A stretch of DNA of 64,000 nt, taken from the NCBI GenBank assembly GCA_945861665.1, contig CAMAVS010000002.1, forward strand, positions 207,527 through 271,526, read 5' to 3'. Position numbers and translations under genes: made by a program. Below are positions 23,729-30,855 of this stretch, piece by piece. Each line of letters begins with the position of its first letter. The first letter of the stretch is position 1. Source of the DNA: Chitinophaga pinensis. Its GTDB lineage: Bacteria; Bacteroidota; Bacteroidia; UBA4408. Under the pieces are notes generated by a model that was not told the DNA's origin, did no database searches, and saw nothing but the letters and a program-made list of their open reading frames with translations.

Positions 23729-26203
23729 TTATTCCTGAAAATAAATGCGTTTTACTCTGCGTGAAATGGTCGTGAGTATTTCGTAAGGAATAGTCCCGGC
23801 CGCTTTTGCTATTTCACTTATGGGATAACTTTCTCCAAATATAATTACCTCATCGCCTTCATTGCACGCAATATCTGTAACATCTATCATGCACATATCC
23901 ATACAAATATTGCCTACTGTTGGAGAAAAAATGTCATTTACCAACATCTTTCCATTCCCGTTTCCCAATTTTCTATTATACCCATCAGCATAACCGATAG
24001 GAACTGTAGCAATACGCGAATTTCTTTTTACAATACCTTTTCTGCTGTATCCGACAGTTTCATTTGTGGCAACATTTTTAATTTGAGAGATGTTTGTTTT
24101 TAATGTACTAACGTGTTGCAAATTCATTTGTTCATAATCGTTCGATGAAATTCCGTACATGCCAATTCCTAGGCGTACCATGTCAAACTGTGCATCTGGA
24201 AAGCGAGTAATGCCGCTTGAATTAAGAATGTGTTTTAAAATAGGATAATTGAAACGGGAAAGTATTTGTTCACTGGCATCATTGAATCGTTGAATTTGCA
24301 ATTTCGTAAACTCATCGTGTTCTTTTTCATCGCTTGCTACAATGTGCGAAAAAACTGATTTTATAACAATGTTTTTGCTATTCTGTATGCGTATAATTAG
24401 TTCATTTATTTCATCTAAATCAAAACCCAATCGGTGCATTCCGGTATCTATTTTTAGATGAACAGGTGTTTTTTTACCCTTTAACTTCGACCTGTTTGCA
24501 GCATCGTTAAAGAGGTTTAGGGCTCTAAAGTTAAATAGCTCTGGCTCAAGGTTGTACTCAATCATGGCATCGTAACTTTGCTCTTCCGGATTCATAACCA
24601 TAATGGGAGCGGCTATTCCAGCCTTTCGCAATTCAATTCCTTCATCGGCATATGCTACCGCTAAATAATCGATACGATTAAATTGCAACACATTCGCTAT
24701 CTCATAACTTCCACTTCCATACGAAAAAGCTTTTACCATGGCCATTACTTTGGTTGTAGGCTTTAGCTTTGACCGAAAGTAGTTGAGGTTGGATACCAGT
24801 GCATTTAAGTTAATCTCCAATAATGTTTCGTGCGCTTTTTGTTGAATGGTTTTACTAATATTTTCAAAACCAAAAGCTCGCGCACCCTTTATAAGTATAA
24901 TTTCATTGTTAAATAAACCTACATTGTAGTGTTTTAAAAAATCGTTGGTGGTTATAAAAAATCGTTTATCAAGGCTAAAAAAAGCAGACTGACGCGAGAT
25001 GGCTTCTCCTATACCGATAATACGTGTTATGTTTTTTTTAAATAAGAGATCAGCAACCTCTTTGTATAAACTCGCTTCGTCCTTGCCGCTTTGAAGTATG
25101 TCAGACAGAATAATGGTTCGTTTAGTAAATTGTTTCTGCTGATTTAAAAAATTCAAGGCAATTGCCAAAGAACCTAAATCCGAATTATAGCTATCGTTTA
25201 TAATAGAGCAATTGTTCACTCCTTCTTTCATTTCCAATCGCATTGCAACAGGACTAAGCTGCAGCATTCGCTTTTCAATTTGCTCAGAATTGTATTTTAT
25301 TAGCAACATAAGCGCCCAACAATTAATGGCATTTTCAATGGATGCTTCATCTGTAAAAGGAATACGTATTTTTATAAAATCGTTGTTGTAAATCCCCTGT
25401 ATATATGTTTCGTTCTCTTGTTTTGCAACTTTTGTTATTTGCAAATCTGCTTTTGATTTTCGCGACCAAGTAACCATTTTTGTATTTATTAAAGAAGCTA
25501 CAGATTCGTTAACTATTGAGTAATCTTTACAGTATATGAGTGTTTCGCAGTTGCTAAAAAGGGCTAACTTCTCTTGTGTTTTTATTTGGTTTGTTTCAAA
25601 ATTTTCTGAATGCGCTTGACCAATGTTCGTTAGTATTCCGATGGTGGGTTTAATAATACTTTCCAGTACCGCCATTTCGTTGCGTTTTGAAATTCCAGCT
25701 TCAAATATTCCCAATTCATTCCCTTCACCCATTTGCCATAACGACAAAGGAACACCTACTTGAGAATTAAAACTTTTAGGCGAACGAACAATGTTAAAGT
25801 CCTCACGTAATAATTGAAAAAGCCATTCTTTAACAATTGTTTTCCCGTTGCTTCCGGTTATTCCAATAACAGGATAGTTGAACTGATTACGATGGTGGGC
25901 ACACAGTTTTTGTAGCGCAACTAAGGTGTTTGCCACTTGTATAAAATTGGCTTCGGGGTAATTGCTTTTCGAATAACTACTAGTGTCCGAAACAATAAAA
26001 TTTCGAATTCCCCTTTTATATACCTCAGCAATAAATTGATGCCCATTATTTCGCTCTCCGTGTATTGCAAAGAACAAAACGTTTTCAACATTAGCAACAT
26101 TGCGACTATCAATTAAAAGCTGACTTATTTTTTCTTCTCGCGCTGGAGCATTTAGGACCTTTCCTTTAACAATATTTACTACTTCTGTTAGATAATAACT
26201 CAT
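23729..26203 (-). CDS. Bifunctional MurF ligase / alanine racemase
   Basis: 824 residues from the ATG at 26203. A longer frame from 26275 would overlap tdk by 71 bases and is rejected. The N-terminal half is MurF (UDP-MurNAc-tripeptide:D-Ala-D-Ala ligase), with the P-loop GITGSNGKTIVKEW and the Mur-ligase ISKRNEM and NDSYNSDLGS motifs. The C-terminal half is alanine racemase, with the PLP lysine in AMVKAFSYGSG (usually VKADAYGHG), MVRLGIGMYG and a C-terminal NICMDMCMIDVT. The fusion links D-Ala production to its use in peptidoglycan. It starts two bases after the tdk stop. Confidence 0.93.
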   Translation of the reverse strand: MSYYLTEVVNIVKGKVLNAPAREEKISQLLIDSRNVANVENVLFFAIHGERNNGHQFIAEVYKRGIRNFIVSDTSSYSKSNYPEANFIQVANTLVALQKLCAHHRNQFNYPVIGITGSNGKTIVKEWLFQLLREDFNIVRSPKSFNSQVGVPLSLWQMGEGNELGIFEAGISKRNEMAVLESIIKPTIGILTNIGQAHSENFETNQIKTQEKLALFSNCETLIYCKDYSIVNESVASLINTKMVTWSRKSKADLQITKVAKQENETYIQGIYNNDFIKIRIPFTDEASIENAINCWALMLLIKYNSEQIEKRMLQLSPVAMRLEMKEGVNNCSIINDSYNSDLGSLAIALNFLNQQKQFTKRTIILSDILQSGKDEASLYKEVADLLFKKNITRIIGIGEAISRQSAFFSLDKRFFITTNDFLKHYNVGLFNNEIILIKGARAFGFENISKTIQQKAHETLLEINLNALVSNLNYFRSKLKPTTKVMAMVKAFSYGSGSYEIANVLQFNRIDYLAVAYADEGIELRKAGIAAPIMVMNPEEQSYDAMIEYNLEPELFNFRALNLFNDAANRSKLKGKKTPVHLKIDTGMHRLGFDLDEINELIIRIQNSKNIVIKSVFSHIVASDEKEHDEFTKLQIQRFNDASEQILSRFNYPILKHILNSSGITRFPDAQFDMVRLGIGMYGISSNDYEQMNLQHVSTLKTNISQIKNVATNETVGYSRKGIVKRNSRIATVPIGYADGYNRKLGNGNGKMLVNDIFSPTVGNICMDMCMIDVTDIACNEGDEVIIFGESYPISEIAKAAGTIPYEILTTISRRVKRIYFQE

Positions 26204-26204
26204 A

Positions 26205-26783
26205 TTATATATTAGTTGCTTTGTAAAAACAGTCTCTGCACAAGGGTTCGTAATTATTTGTTTCTCCCAATACAACTAAAGAGTTCTCTTTGCTTATTCG
26301 ATGGGAGTTATTTGCCAAACCTCCGCAACGCATACAAACAGCATGTACCTTCGTTACGTATTCAGCCACTGCCATTAAAGGAGGAATAGGACCAAATGGT
26401 TTCCCTAAATAATCCATATCGAGCCCCGCAACAATAACCCGTATTCCTTTGTTTGCTAATTGGGTGCAAACATTCACTATTTCAATGTCAAAAAATTGTG
26501 CTTCATCAATACCAACAACATCTACATCGTTTGCTAACAGCAATATGTTTGCTGAAGTTTCTACGGGAGTTGAGGGGATAGAAGTTAAATTGTGCGAAAC
26601 AACATTTATTTCATCGTAGCGTTTATCGATAGCGGGCTTAAATATTTCTACTTTTTGTTTTGCAAAGGTTGCTCGTTTCAGTCTGCGAATAAGTTCTTCG
26701 GTTTTACCTGAAAACATTGAGCCGCAAATAACTTCTATCCAACCTTTTCCTTTATCGTTATTTATCGTGTTTTCGAGGAACAT
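26205..26783 (-). CDS. tdk: Thymidine kinase
   Basis: A 192-residue type II thymidine kinase that phosphorylates thymidine in the salvage pathway. The P-loop is [15 protein letters not shown] (20-34), the Mg-binding motif DEAQFFD follows near 113, and the C-terminal zinc site shows CMRCGG and CRDCF. The lasso loop before the second Cys pair is present. Length is normal. First gene of a minus-strand group with murF-alr and the DAHP synthase gene. Confidence 0.95.
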
Positions 26784-27728: not shown

Positions 27729-30700
27729 ATGAAAATTAATACTCGTTTTTTAAAACCGTTAACTATAATAGTAGGTTTACTGGCGGTGCAGTTTACCTTC
27801 GCACAGTGTCCTGTAATAACTTGCCCGGGTAATCAAACAGTAAATAACACCCCTGGCACTTGTGGTGCAGTGGTTAATTATGCAACTCCCGTTGGCGCTA
27901 ATCCTTGTGGTGGCGGCCCAACAACATTTACATATACAGGTGTTGCGCAGAACTATACTGTTCCTGCAGGGGTGACAACCATCACTATTGACGCATTTGG
28001 CGCCCAAGGGGGTACTTATGGTAACTTTACTGGTGGTTTAGGTGCAAGAATAAAAGGAAATGTTAGTGTTACTCCGGGACAAGTATTGCTAGTTTATGTT
28101 GGCGCGCAGGGTATCCCAAGTCAAAATGCTGGTGGAGGTGGTGGCGGAAGTGGTGTTTCAAATGGAGGAACAGCTTTAGTTGTAGCAGGTGCAGGAGGTG
28201 GTGCTTGTTCTGTAAATGGTGAGAATGGTTACCCAGGACTTATAACAACTATAGGAGGAAACTCTTCAGGTGCAGGTGGAGCAGGTGGAAATGGCGGACA
28301 AAAAGGATATAAATCTGGAGATTGTGGATGGGCCGGAGGAGGTGGCGGTTTTTTGGGTGACGGTTATGGAGGTCCTCAAGGTAATGATGGTGGTGCTTTA
28401 CCTGGTACATTAGGCGGTCCAGCAGGAGGAAAATCAAGAACGAATGGAGGAGCAGGGGGAGTTGGGGGTTGTTGTGGCTTTTCAAATTTAGGTTCAGGTG
28501 GCTGGGGATGCGGTGGTGGAGGTCGTGCGGAGTATGGCGGAGGCGGGGGCGGAGGTTATAGTGGCGGTGGCGGTGGCCAGTACGTTGACGTAGCTGGCAA
28601 AAGAGGTGGAGGCGGAGGAGGGTCGTATAATTCAGGGGTAAGCCAAACGAATACTTCCGGAGTGCAATCAGGAAATGGACAAGTTGTTATTACACCAATA
28701 ATAAATGGACAAACAATATATAACTACACAGGGGCAATGCAAACATTCACAGTTCCTGCAGGTGTTACTTCAATTAATATTGTTGCAAAAGGGGCACAAG
28801 GTGGAGGTTCCGAAGATTGTGGAGGAATTATTACAAGTGATGGAGGGCTTGGCGGAAGTGCTTCTGGCGACTTGACAGTAGCTCCGGGTCAGGTATTGAA
28901 TATATTTGTAGGTAGATATCCATCAACAGTGTTGGGTGGAAATTCACCTGGAGGATACAATGGTGGCGGTGGCGCGGGTCAATATGGTGGCCCTGGTGGT
29001 GGCGCATCTGATGTAAGACTTGGTGGCGTAGCTTTAGCTGATAGAAAGATTGTAGCTGGTGGTGGTGGTGGTGGCAACACTGGTTGTCCTGACCATGGTT
29101 TCGGTGGTGTTGGTGGTGGATTAAATGGCGCTAACGGGTCAGGTTTAGGACAAGGCTTTACACCTGGTGGAGGTGCTAGCCAAGTTGCTGGAGGAACAGC
29201 AGGTTCAGCTCCTGGTGCGGCAGGCGTTTTAGGTATTGGGGCTGGCACAGGAAATAATTATCATGAAGGAGCTGGTGGTGGAGGTTATTACGGTGGCGGT
29301 TCAGCATATGCTGCTGGAGGTGGCGGTGGATCATCATTTATCGGTGGTGTGCTGAATGGTGTAACTACTTCCGGTGTAAATACAGGTAATGGACAAATAA
29401 TACTAACGTATGCAGGAGGCGCTGGTGGTGCTGTAACTACAATTCAAACTGCAGGTTTAGCAAGTGGAGCAACCTTCCCCGTTGGAACAAGGGTAAATAC
29501 TTTTCAAGTTACTGACGGTTTAGGAAACACAGCATCTTGTTCATTCAATGTGATTGTAGTAGATAATCAAGTTCCTACAATAACTTGTTTGGGTAATATA
29601 ACAGCAAATACAAGCTTAGGTGTTTGTGGTGCAGTAGTAAACTTCAATGCACCAGTAGGAACAGATAATTGTTTGTCAACTACAGCACGTACAACAGGCC
29701 TGGCAAGTGGTTCATTGTTCCCTTTGGGTGCAACAACACAGACATATGTTGTTACAGATGCATCGGGTTTAACGGCAACTTGTTCTTTTACTGTAACAGT
29801 AACAGATAATCAAGCTCCAGCAATAACTTGTCCGGGTAATATAACAGTAAACAATGCATTAGGAATGTGCAATGCAGTAGTAACGTTTAATGCTCCAGTA
29901 GGCACAGATAATTGCTCAGCAACCACAGTTCGTACAGCAGGTTTGCCAAGCGGTTCAACTTTCCCTGTAGGAGTAACAACTCAAAGCTATACAGCAACAG
30001 ATGCAGCAGGAAATGCAACATCTTGTTCCTTTACCGTAACGGTAGTAGACAATGAATTGCCAACAGTAGTTTGTCCAGCAAACGTAGCAACATGTAATCC
30101 ATTGGTAACAGGTATAGCACCAACTAGTACAAACGATAATTGTGCAGGCACAACAGTAGCATATGCTTTAACAGGTGCAACCACGGGCAACGGAAACACC
30201 GATGCAAGTGGCACTACATTTAATGTAGGAACAACCTCTGTAAAGTATACCGTAACTGATGCAGCAGGTAATACAAATAACTGTTCCTTCAATGTGGTAA
30301 TTCACCCAACTCCTGTAGTAGTATTGAGCGCATTTGCGAACGATACCATTTGTGAAGGAGATGCAGCTTTAGCATTACCAAATGCGACTCCTGCAGGAGG
30401 AACCTTTAGTGGAGCAGGTGTAGTAGGTGGAAACTTTAACCCAGCAACAGCAGGAACAGGTAACCACTATGTAGTTTATTCAAGCACCAATGCCGATGGT
30501 TGCAATGATATAGATTCAACAATGATAACAGTATTAGTATGTGCCGGCATCAAAGGAGAAGCAAATGGTTCAAACATAGTAGTTTATCCAAATCCAACAT
30601 CGGGAATGATTACTATAACATTAGGATCGATGAGTAAATTAGTAGAATTAACGGTAACAGAATTAAACGGCCAACTGGTAAAATCAGCAAAATATGCCAA

Positions 30701-30806
30701 CTCCAATAATGTGAGAATGGATATCAGTAATTTATCAGATGGAATGTATTTTGTTACAGTAAAAGCTGACAATGAATTGAAACAAGTGAAGATCGTGAAG
30801 AACTAA
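27729..30806 (+). CDS. T9SS-exported HYR and glycine-rich repeat surface protein
   Basis: 1025 residues from the ATG at 27729. Order: a signal peptide (to about residue 27); the start of a HYR domain (CPVITCPGNQTVNNT); two glycine-rich modules, each opening with a strand such as FTYTGVAQNYTVPAGVTTI or YNYTGAMQTFTVPAGVTSI and rich in GGGGG; the end of the HYR domain (PVGTRVNTFQVTDGLGNTAS); then three more HYR repeats; an Ig-like segment; and a type A sorting domain (VVYPNPTSGMITI to the final QVKIVKN). HYR repeats are beta-sandwich adhesion modules. It is exported by T9SS to the surface or medium. Probable adhesin or matrix component. It stands alone, closed by a terminator. Confidence 0.88.
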   Translation: MKINTRFLKPLTIIVGLLAVQFTFAQCPVITCPGNQTVNNTPGTCGAVVNYATPVGANPCGGGPTTFTYTGVAQNYTVPAGVTTITIDAFGAQGGTYGNFTGGLGARIKGNVSVTPGQVLLVYVGAQGIPSQNAGGGGGGSGVSNGGTALVVAGAGGGACSVNGENGYPGLITTIGGNSSGAGGAGGNGGQKGYKSGDCGWAGGGGGFLGDGYGGPQGNDGGALPGTLGGPAGGKSRTNGGAGGVGGCCGFSNLGSGGWGCGGGGRAEYGGGGGGGYSGGGGGQYVDVAGKRGGGGGGSYNSGVSQTNTSGVQSGNGQVVITPIINGQTIYNYTGAMQTFTVPAGVTSINIVAKGAQGGGSEDCGGIITSDGGLGGSASGDLTVAPGQVLNIFVGRYPSTVLGGNSPGGYNGGGGAGQYGGPGGGASDVRLGGVALADRKIVAGGGGGGNTGCPDHGFGGVGGGLNGANGSGLGQGFTPGGGASQVAGGTAGSAPGAAGVLGIGAGTGNNYHEGAGGGGYYGGGSAYAAGGGGGSSFIGGVLNGVTTSGVNTGNGQIILTYAGGAGGAVTTIQTAGLASGATFPVGTRVNTFQVTDGLGNTASCSFNVIVVDNQVPTITCLGNITANTSLGVCGAVVNFNAPVGTDNCLSTTARTTGLASGSLFPLGATTQTYVVTDASGLTATCSFTVTVTDNQAPAITCPGNITVNNALGMCNAVVTFNAPVGTDNCSATTVRTAGLPSGSTFPVGVTTQSYTATDAAGNATSCSFTVTVVDNELPTVVCPANVATCNPLVTGIAPTSTNDNCAGTTVAYALTGATTGNGNTDASGTTFNVGTTSVKYTVTDAAGNTNNCSFNVVIHPTPVVVLSAFANDTICEGDAALALPNATPAGGTFSGAGVVGGNFNPATAGTGNHYVVYSSTNADGCNDIDSTMITVLVCAGIKGEANGSNIVVYPNPTSGMITITLGSMSKLVELTVTELNGQLVKSAKYANSNNVRMDISNLSDGMYFVTVKADNELKQVKIVKN

Positions 30807-30826: not shown

Positions 30827-30855
30827 AAAAGGCTCACGATTTTTGTGGGCCTTTT
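30827..30855 (+). terminator. Intrinsic terminator
   Basis: AAAAGGCTCAC (30827-30837) pairs, with one G-U, with GTGGGCCTTTT (30845-30855), 20 bases after the stop of the large T9SS gene. Confidence 0.8.

Follow-up and report, generated by a model that had tools for sequence, protein, structure and literature searches.

An HYR domain interrupted by two glycine-rich ALK/LTK-like modules in a putative type IX-secreted adhesin of Chitinophaga pinensis

Does a single HYR domain in a predicted surface protein of Chitinophaga pinensis begin, give way to two glycine-rich modules and then resume? The question is raised by an open reading frame on the forward strand (27729-30806) of the window, i.e., the whole stretch of 64,000 nucleotides that was analysed, which encodes 1025 amino acids counted from its ATG, or 1027 if translation were to start at a TTG located 6 bases 5' of it. 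In Pfam searches, this protein displayed HYR (PF02494) in four stretches, ALK_LTK_GRD (best stretch, residues 353-557) and one Por_Secre_tail, and its parts follow one another as a signal peptide, the N half of an HYR domain, two glycine-rich modules (m1 and m2), an HYR C half, three whole HYRs, a further stretch and the tail. HYR domains were delimited with a profile trained solely on open reading frames without a glycine-rich domain (GRD), hereafter the clean profile; an earlier HYR profile was dropped because its training sequences contained module starts. The features are as follows, in window coordinates:

27729-27806, forward strand: signal peptide, residues 1-26; hydrophobic N-terminus ending in FAQC, with the mature start placed by eye near Q26/C27
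27807-27920, forward strand: N half of the split HYR, residues 27-64 (CPVITCPGNQ...NPC); clean HYR profile and Pfam on the joined flanks
27924-28700, forward strand: first glycine-rich ALK/LTK-like TG module (m1), residues 66-324; own GRD profile, 116.7 bits at 66-322
28716-29411, forward strand: second glycine-rich ALK/LTK-like TG module (m2), residues 330-561; PF12810, 63.9 bits (cut-off 24.5), and own GRD profile, 178.5 bits (331-561)
29430-29558, forward strand: C half of the split HYR, residues 568-610; HYR profile positions 39-80, 38.1 bits (569-610), and Pfam alone, 31.6 bits
29562-29801, forward strand: uninterrupted HYR, residues 612-691; clean HYR profile and empty-site match to the joined first HYR
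29805-30044, forward strand: uninterrupted HYR, residues 693-772; clean HYR profile
30048-30302, forward strand: divergent uninterrupted HYR, residues 774-858; clean HYR profile, 46.0 bits, versus 76.7 and 90.6 for the other two
30582-30803, forward strand: type IX secretion C-terminal sorting domain, residues 952-1025; PF18962, E 3.4e-15, and TIGR04183, 46.6 bits (cut-off 23)

Since the protein carries this sorting tail and its genome contains sprA (2615 bits; the gene of the type IX secretion system, T9SS, that was searched for), a combination expected of T9SS type A cargo, export by this route is predicted, and its sequence makes it most likely a T9SS-exported surface adhesin. In the surroundings of the gene, a terminator-like stem lies at 30827-30855 (one found, versus 3.1 expected by chance), and an 848-residue open reading frame on the reverse strand (23729-26275) reads by eye as MurF ligase fused to alanine racemase, a kind of fusion known in Bacteroidota. 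A rise in GC over the gene was set aside as a sign of foreign DNA, because glycine codons would raise GC.

The Pfam HYR family, whose cut-off is 21.7 bits, was applied to the flanks of the first HYR joined by removing the modules and the short linker that follows m2. The joined flanks scored 44.5 bits over positions 5-81 of the 81 in the profile, versus 14.4 bits for the N half alone and 31.6 bits for the C half alone; the full profile is matched by the first HYR only after removal of the insert, and in the intact protein the N half is absent from all Pfam HYR matches. The interruption claimed in a preliminary description of this DNA is thus restored to a whole domain when the modules are taken out, and the insert, placed at one loop, measures about 500 residues by profile placement, close to the approximately 490 originally given. 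Further, the joined first HYR aligned by BLAST with the next HYR of the same protein (E 4e-30), and the joined first HYR of a paralog encoded in the same genome aligned with that same repeat (E 1e-39), the gap being located at the insertion point in both cases. At the DNA level, a 69-base stretch of the N half is 70-72% identical to the beginnings of two of the later HYRs (family D2). The later repeats had been described as uninterrupted, and all three are indeed covered in full by the clean profile, the third being more divergent.

The locus could also be read as containing no split, the start of the module substituting for the C half that the first HYR would lack, and the C half found after the modules belonging to another, truncated repeat. 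Such a reading draws on the likeness between the module opening (FTVPAGVTSI) and the HYR C half (FPVGTTTVTY): the first strands of both modules (27924-28016 and 28716-28809) resemble the latter and pull HYR profiles across the junction, and the clean profile itself runs into m1, covering residues 27-94 at 33.1 bits. However, the joined halves fit the HYR profile with little missing and nothing repeated, the C half at residues 569-610 earns its 38.1 bits from the clean profile by itself, the part matching ALK and LTK begins with the first strands of the module itself (model residue 37-42), and both flanks appear to align jointly to single Ig/PKD-like domains, all of which leaves this reading very improbable. 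The likeness of module starts to the HYR C half may nevertheless mislead annotation.

An HYR interrupted by inserted modules is also supported by its uninterrupted counterparts, whose search had been suggested at the outset. Joined flanks were compared by BLAST with a database from which all detected GRDs had been cut out, 268 of 353 distinct GRD blocks being queryable (at least 20 residues on both sides), and a match counted as strictly junction-spanning if it had E < 1e-10 and extended 25 residues or more into both flanks. By this criterion, all 47 HYR-nested units as well as 94 other blocks matched contiguous sequence across the junction, HYR sequence in the case of the nested HYRs, and the gap sits at the insertion point in the six nested-HYR alignments listed. 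The matched sequences are uninterrupted domains of the same type, in many cases an adjacent HYR, and do not imply orthology to the same copy.

Regarding the identity of the modules, PF12810 recognized one of the two, m2, at a score above its cut-off, and the piece holding m1 yielded no Pfam GRD match. A profile of 30 nested units, built from sequence only, had ALK and LTK chains as its sole matches under E 0.01, with E-values from 9.5e-14 to 1.7e-11. The likeness to the ALK/LTK TG domain (PF12810) consists of the score of m2 over the Pfam cut-off and of structure models of relatives, with Z 12.7-14.7 over 149-180 residues, whereas the window modules differ in being bacterial, devoid of a kinase, predicted to be T9SS-exported and nested in another domain, with m1 lying beyond the Pfam model. 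Relative to the HYR family, both halves fit the profile and uninterrupted HYRs follow, the difference being the one to two whole domains carried in one loop. A GxTGxxGP(T/D)Q...AY stretch, which may resemble the start of the ALK TG domain, precedes some bacterial modules (upstream of the first module in L208 and L226, and in L093 and L161 block 3). Two full tandem glycine-rich modules are also found at L197:3191-4723, whose contig bears the title Candidatus Magasanikbacteria, a group remote from Bacteroidota.

Structure prediction had likewise been proposed as a check on whether the split HYR closes around its insert. AF2 models were made for two one-module relatives, L165 (30 sequences) and L170 (27 sequences), one for each module type, the types being separated by eye. 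Mean pLDDT and pTM were 71.2 and 0.68 for L165, and 67.6 and 0.65 for L170; in both models, averaged in blocks of ten, the HYR halves and the beta base mostly displayed pLDDT 80-97, with some blocks at 63-79, and the glycine-rich heads 30-57. In structural comparisons (VIA), residues 39-301 of the L165 model matched ALK at Z 14.5 (159 aligned residues, 2.9 A), and the model also matched the phage Pam3 fibre (Z 10.5) and the Bxb1 tail tip (Z 10.0); the L170 model matched LTK at Z 14.7, ALK at Z 14.4 and Pam3 at Z 11.1. With Foldseek, the whole L165 model retrieved 19 matches at E < 0.001, all of them ALK or LTK (best 2.6e-5), with poor superpositions (TM about 0.3, rmsd > 10 A, ranks 1-19). In these relatives, the models strongly support that the insert adopts the TNF-like/glycine-rich (TG) fold of ALK and LTK, with both the TNF-like base and the glycine-rich part that define ALK_LTK_GRD, the glycine region being at low pLDDT.

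As for the HYR part, the L165 model aligned with single Ig/PKD-like domains over 69-82 residues, in ranges extending from approximately residues 1-7 to 348-351 (7jrl and 4m00, both at Z 7.4). This fits a domain made of the two flanks, because about 86 residues of the model lie in the flanks, beyond its ALK-like part; the ranges give first and last residues only, and the joint alignment of the flanks is read from them rather than from coordinates. The L170 model behaved likewise, its best match of this kind being SraP (4m00) at Z 8.4 over 79 residues (2.1 A). Values of Z 6-8.4 for the Ig part speak for a common fold only, in a range reachable by chance for common folds. Taken together, the models suggest that, in one-module relatives, the two halves form one HYR enclosing the insert, and the nested architecture proposed for this T9SS-type protein is supported by its sequence, by the empty-site alignments and by the models of relatives.

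The same TNF-like plus glycine-rich fold is present in phage tail-fibre and tail-tip proteins (Pam3 gp24 and Bxb1 9d93; Z 9.5-11.1). The Pam3 domain is terminal, on a helical stalk with a chaperone, whereas the bacterial modules are inserted in an Ig-like domain. In the Pam3 study, this domain is described as the receptor-recognising tip of the fibre, with a conserved glycine stem and a variable distal end (PMC9608196). In our collection, 39 viral contigs (L243-L281) encode relatives of a search query that contained the HYR N half, the matches beginning at query residue 20 or beyond and none covering the whole HYR N half; they are possibly tail-fibre or adhesin genes.

To what extent is this arrangement particular to the window? 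PF12810 was found in 79 of the 395 genomes of the class and at two places in the own genome, the second corresponding to the mentioned paralog, a protein of 736 residues in which the same first HYR is split at the same place by one module. Among the eight genomes of the window's family, HYR is present in two (G000 and G003) and PF12810 in two (G000 and G002); in the own genome, all seven HYR matches fall in the window protein and its paralog. Within loci L001-L162, a junction-spanning HYR match was obtained for 18 of 221 GRD blocks (L010 and L113 being one gene). Loci were added from named genomes (80 of 340 confirmed loci kept) and from viral contigs (39 loci), and 47 of the 353 distinct GRD blocks in the enlarged set are nested in HYR, a biased frequency, since the query for the added loci contained the HYR N half. 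Two L207 blocks look HYR-nested by BLAST and stand outside the 47, and L175 was left out because its contig ends within the C half.

These nested blocks share several traits. The insertion point falls in HYR profile columns 38-45 in all 47, in a loop located a few residues past a DNC/NPC-type cysteine present in most members. In 37 of the 47, the nested unit begins within 100 residues of the open frame start, at least one of these (L209) being cut by the contig end, and a leader like that of the window protein precedes the HYR in the 18 nested blocks listed. A YPNP-type motif occurs in the last 95 residues of 29 of the 33 nested open reading frames with a complete C-terminus; the tails of the other four are similar by eye in L165, L167 and L177, and dissimilar in L209. 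Flavobacteriales account for 18 of the 30 named nested loci; Aequorivita soesokkakensis, Ulvibacter litoralis and Sediminibacterium goheungense are represented among the nested loci. Record titles place two of them in other phyla, L209 in Planctomycetota and L178 in Lysobacterales, and the latter title may be a binning error, since L178 is 95% identical to Aequorivita L177 in its shell as well as in its module.

It had been anticipated that an insert forming a fixed part of the family would speak against the initial claim; the insert does recur in the family, and is hence no one-off, and the nesting itself stands. Two full tandem modules (>400 residues) occur in four of the 353 blocks, of which the window's is the sole one nested in HYR. 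Nine nested blocks displayed two profile matches, and eight of them are considered to hold a single module because of their length (247-262 residues), the ninth being the window's. It is therefore well supported that the nesting at the first HYR is a recurrent family feature, the window protein standing out by carrying two modules that are unrelated to each other.

The initial description of m1 and m2 as similar holds for fold and composition and not for sequence; it identified neither their ALK/LTK TG fold nor the apparent exchangeability of such modules. Outside shared glycines, their identity is 0.22, about the median of random GRD pairs (0.233; 95th percentile 0.357, 99th 0.416; 39060 pairs), and that between m1 and the module of the paralog is 0.24; m2 and the paralog module reach 0.47, above the 99th percentile. 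Tandem duplication of m1 and m2 was rejected on this 22% identity, and the share of identical codons at same-residue positions of the two modules (8/19 at the start, 30/75 in the interior and 6/13 at the end) also counted against it. Between m2 and the paralog module, the first and last 30 residues gave 0.80 and 0.77 and the interior 0.63, which would be as expected for a conserved base and a variable head, in this one pair. As judged from these comparisons, the ancestor of the paralogs most likely had one m2-type module, and the window copy would have gained an unrelated m1 in front of it after gene duplication; loss of m1 from the paralog, rather than its gain by the window copy, is the alternative.

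The pairing of unrelated modules with related shells extends to other nested units. Over 1081 pairs of nested units, identity of the shells was only weakly correlated with identity of the GRDs, the latter computed without shared glycines (Spearman 0.18). At shell identity of 0.65 or higher (44 pairs, which are not independent and represent a few events), GRD identity is at least 0.60 in 19 pairs, below 0.42, about the 99th percentile of random GRD pairs, in 24 and between these values in one, the window pair; at shell identity of 0.65-0.90 (34 pairs), the corresponding counts are 9, 24 and 1. Aequorivita L186 and L181 display a shell identity of 0.85 and a GRD identity of 0.33, and L165 and L107 values of 0.83 and 0.33. 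L107 is the same sequence as L183 and belongs to the same assembly as L165, so that L165 and L107 are paralogs in one genome; this pair recurs in a second MAG (L167/L175, GRD 0.32; L175/L107, GRD 0.97). For some of the modules counted as unrelated, identity is 0.32-0.38, towards the top of what random pairs give (95th percentile 0.357). That closely related shells carry unrelated modules is nevertheless strongly supported by these sequence comparisons.

A single ancient insertion followed by vertical descent, with modules evolving faster than the HYR shell and no exchange, might account for the narrow range of insertion points shared by all 47 blocks and for the parallel divergence of shell and module in several relatives. 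A further point in its favour came from a FastTree tree of this low-complexity domain. The tree holds 280 GRDs, left after a set of 340 with a length of 190 residues or more was thinned at 85% identity; 40 of the 280 are HYR-nested, and the others include Ig_7-nested modules. Nested and other GRDs required 22 state changes, whereas 200 shuffles gave 38 on average and never fewer than 34; nested GRDs are therefore partly clustered, but they do not form one group, and the interleaving of GRDs from nested and free proteins argues against a single insertion. Moreover, faster drift of the modules fails to explain the unlike heads, because vertical-looking pairs diverge at about the same rate in module and shell (shell 0.65-0.99, GRD within about 0.15) and because 18 pairs with shell identity below 0.60 keep a GRD identity of at least 0.60 (e.g., L055/L060, shell 0.34 and GRD 0.61); neither would drift give a GRD identity of 0.33 beside shells at 0.83-0.85, as in L165/L107 and L186/L181. 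We regard strictly vertical descent as quite unlikely. Rather, unlike modules in alike shells point to cassette replacement or to repeated insertion at one hot spot, two processes that would leave the same pattern in these sequences.

HYR is not the sole domain interrupted by this kind of module. Ig_7 (PF19081), a CHU_C-associated Ig-like domain of other Bacteroidota, is interrupted likewise, the host domain and the loop (near Ig_7 profile position 67) being different from those of HYR nesting. In the Pfam test, carried out on an L011 block, the joined flanks restored Ig_7 at 46.9 bits over positions 1-83 of 84, versus 38.8 and 14.5 bits for the pieces alone. GRDs interrupt Ig_7-like domains near the last loop in L011 and L101 (G043), L127, L082, L095 and similar loci, and in several Ig_7-type loci more than once within one long protein. 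From the 94 non-HYR blocks with a strict junction-spanning match, a simple text pattern for Ig_7-like sequence picked out 35, another 2 are HYR-like, and the remaining 57 were left unsorted; 40 of the latter were inspected by eye, many being Ig_7-looking and some (L234) clearly other repeats.

Together, these findings show or strongly support that the HYR is split, that insertion occurs at a single site, that empty versions exist, that the modules of relatives have the TG fold and that the arrangement recurs, and we favour, as the more probable account, that the protein is a T9SS adhesin whose first HYR serves as a socket for exchangeable ligand-binding TG heads. In this mechanism, the chain would leave the Ig-like first HYR at one loop past the DNC/NPC-type cysteine, build two complete ALK/LTK-type TG modules, each with a TNF-like base and a glycine-rich head, and return to finish the HYR. 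By analogy with their relatives, the heads may bind ligands, i.e., glycans, proteins or cells; closure of the HYR would anchor them firmly through two chain crossings; and binding specificity would change as modules are exchanged or inserted anew while the shell stays constant.

The modules might instead be structural spacers or self-association elements involved in stalk formation, trimerisation or matrix, the nesting being merely a rigid joint. TNF-like domains often oligomerise and glycine-rich proteins are often structural, both of which count for such a role, as does the trimeric state of phage Pam3 gp24 (PMC9608196). The nearest solved relatives, however, are ligand-bound receptors (ALK:ALKAL2 and LTK:ALKAL1) or a fibre tip described as host-recognising; besides, most nested units (37 of 47) begin close to the open frame start, and the presence of unrelated modules in similar shells is more easily reconciled with recognition than with a structural role. 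We thus hold a structural role to be rather unlikely, and exchangeable ligand-binding heads remain the preferred reading.

Among the titles and abstract openings of open-licence papers listed (up to 12 per search), neither the nesting of GRDs in HYR nor a socket-and-cassette arrangement was found, and no open-licence papers were retrieved that link the HYR domain to type IX secretion in Bacteroidetes, to glycine-rich sequence in Bacteroidetes, or to gliding in Flavobacterium; the parts themselves are already known. ALK-type ligand-binding domains are best known from animals and phage tips. On a broader scale, we tentatively suggest that HYR and Ig_7 could be standard sockets of Bacteroidota in which ALK-type modules are inserted, doubled and swapped, and that the ligand-binding domain of animal ALK/LTK and the phage tips might share one mobile pool with them. 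Split domains can escape standard annotation, as illustrated by the N half missed by the Pfam HYR matches here. Plug-in modules, with alike shells carrying unrelated heads, provide a testable model of how surface recognition may be changed without rebuilding the stalk.
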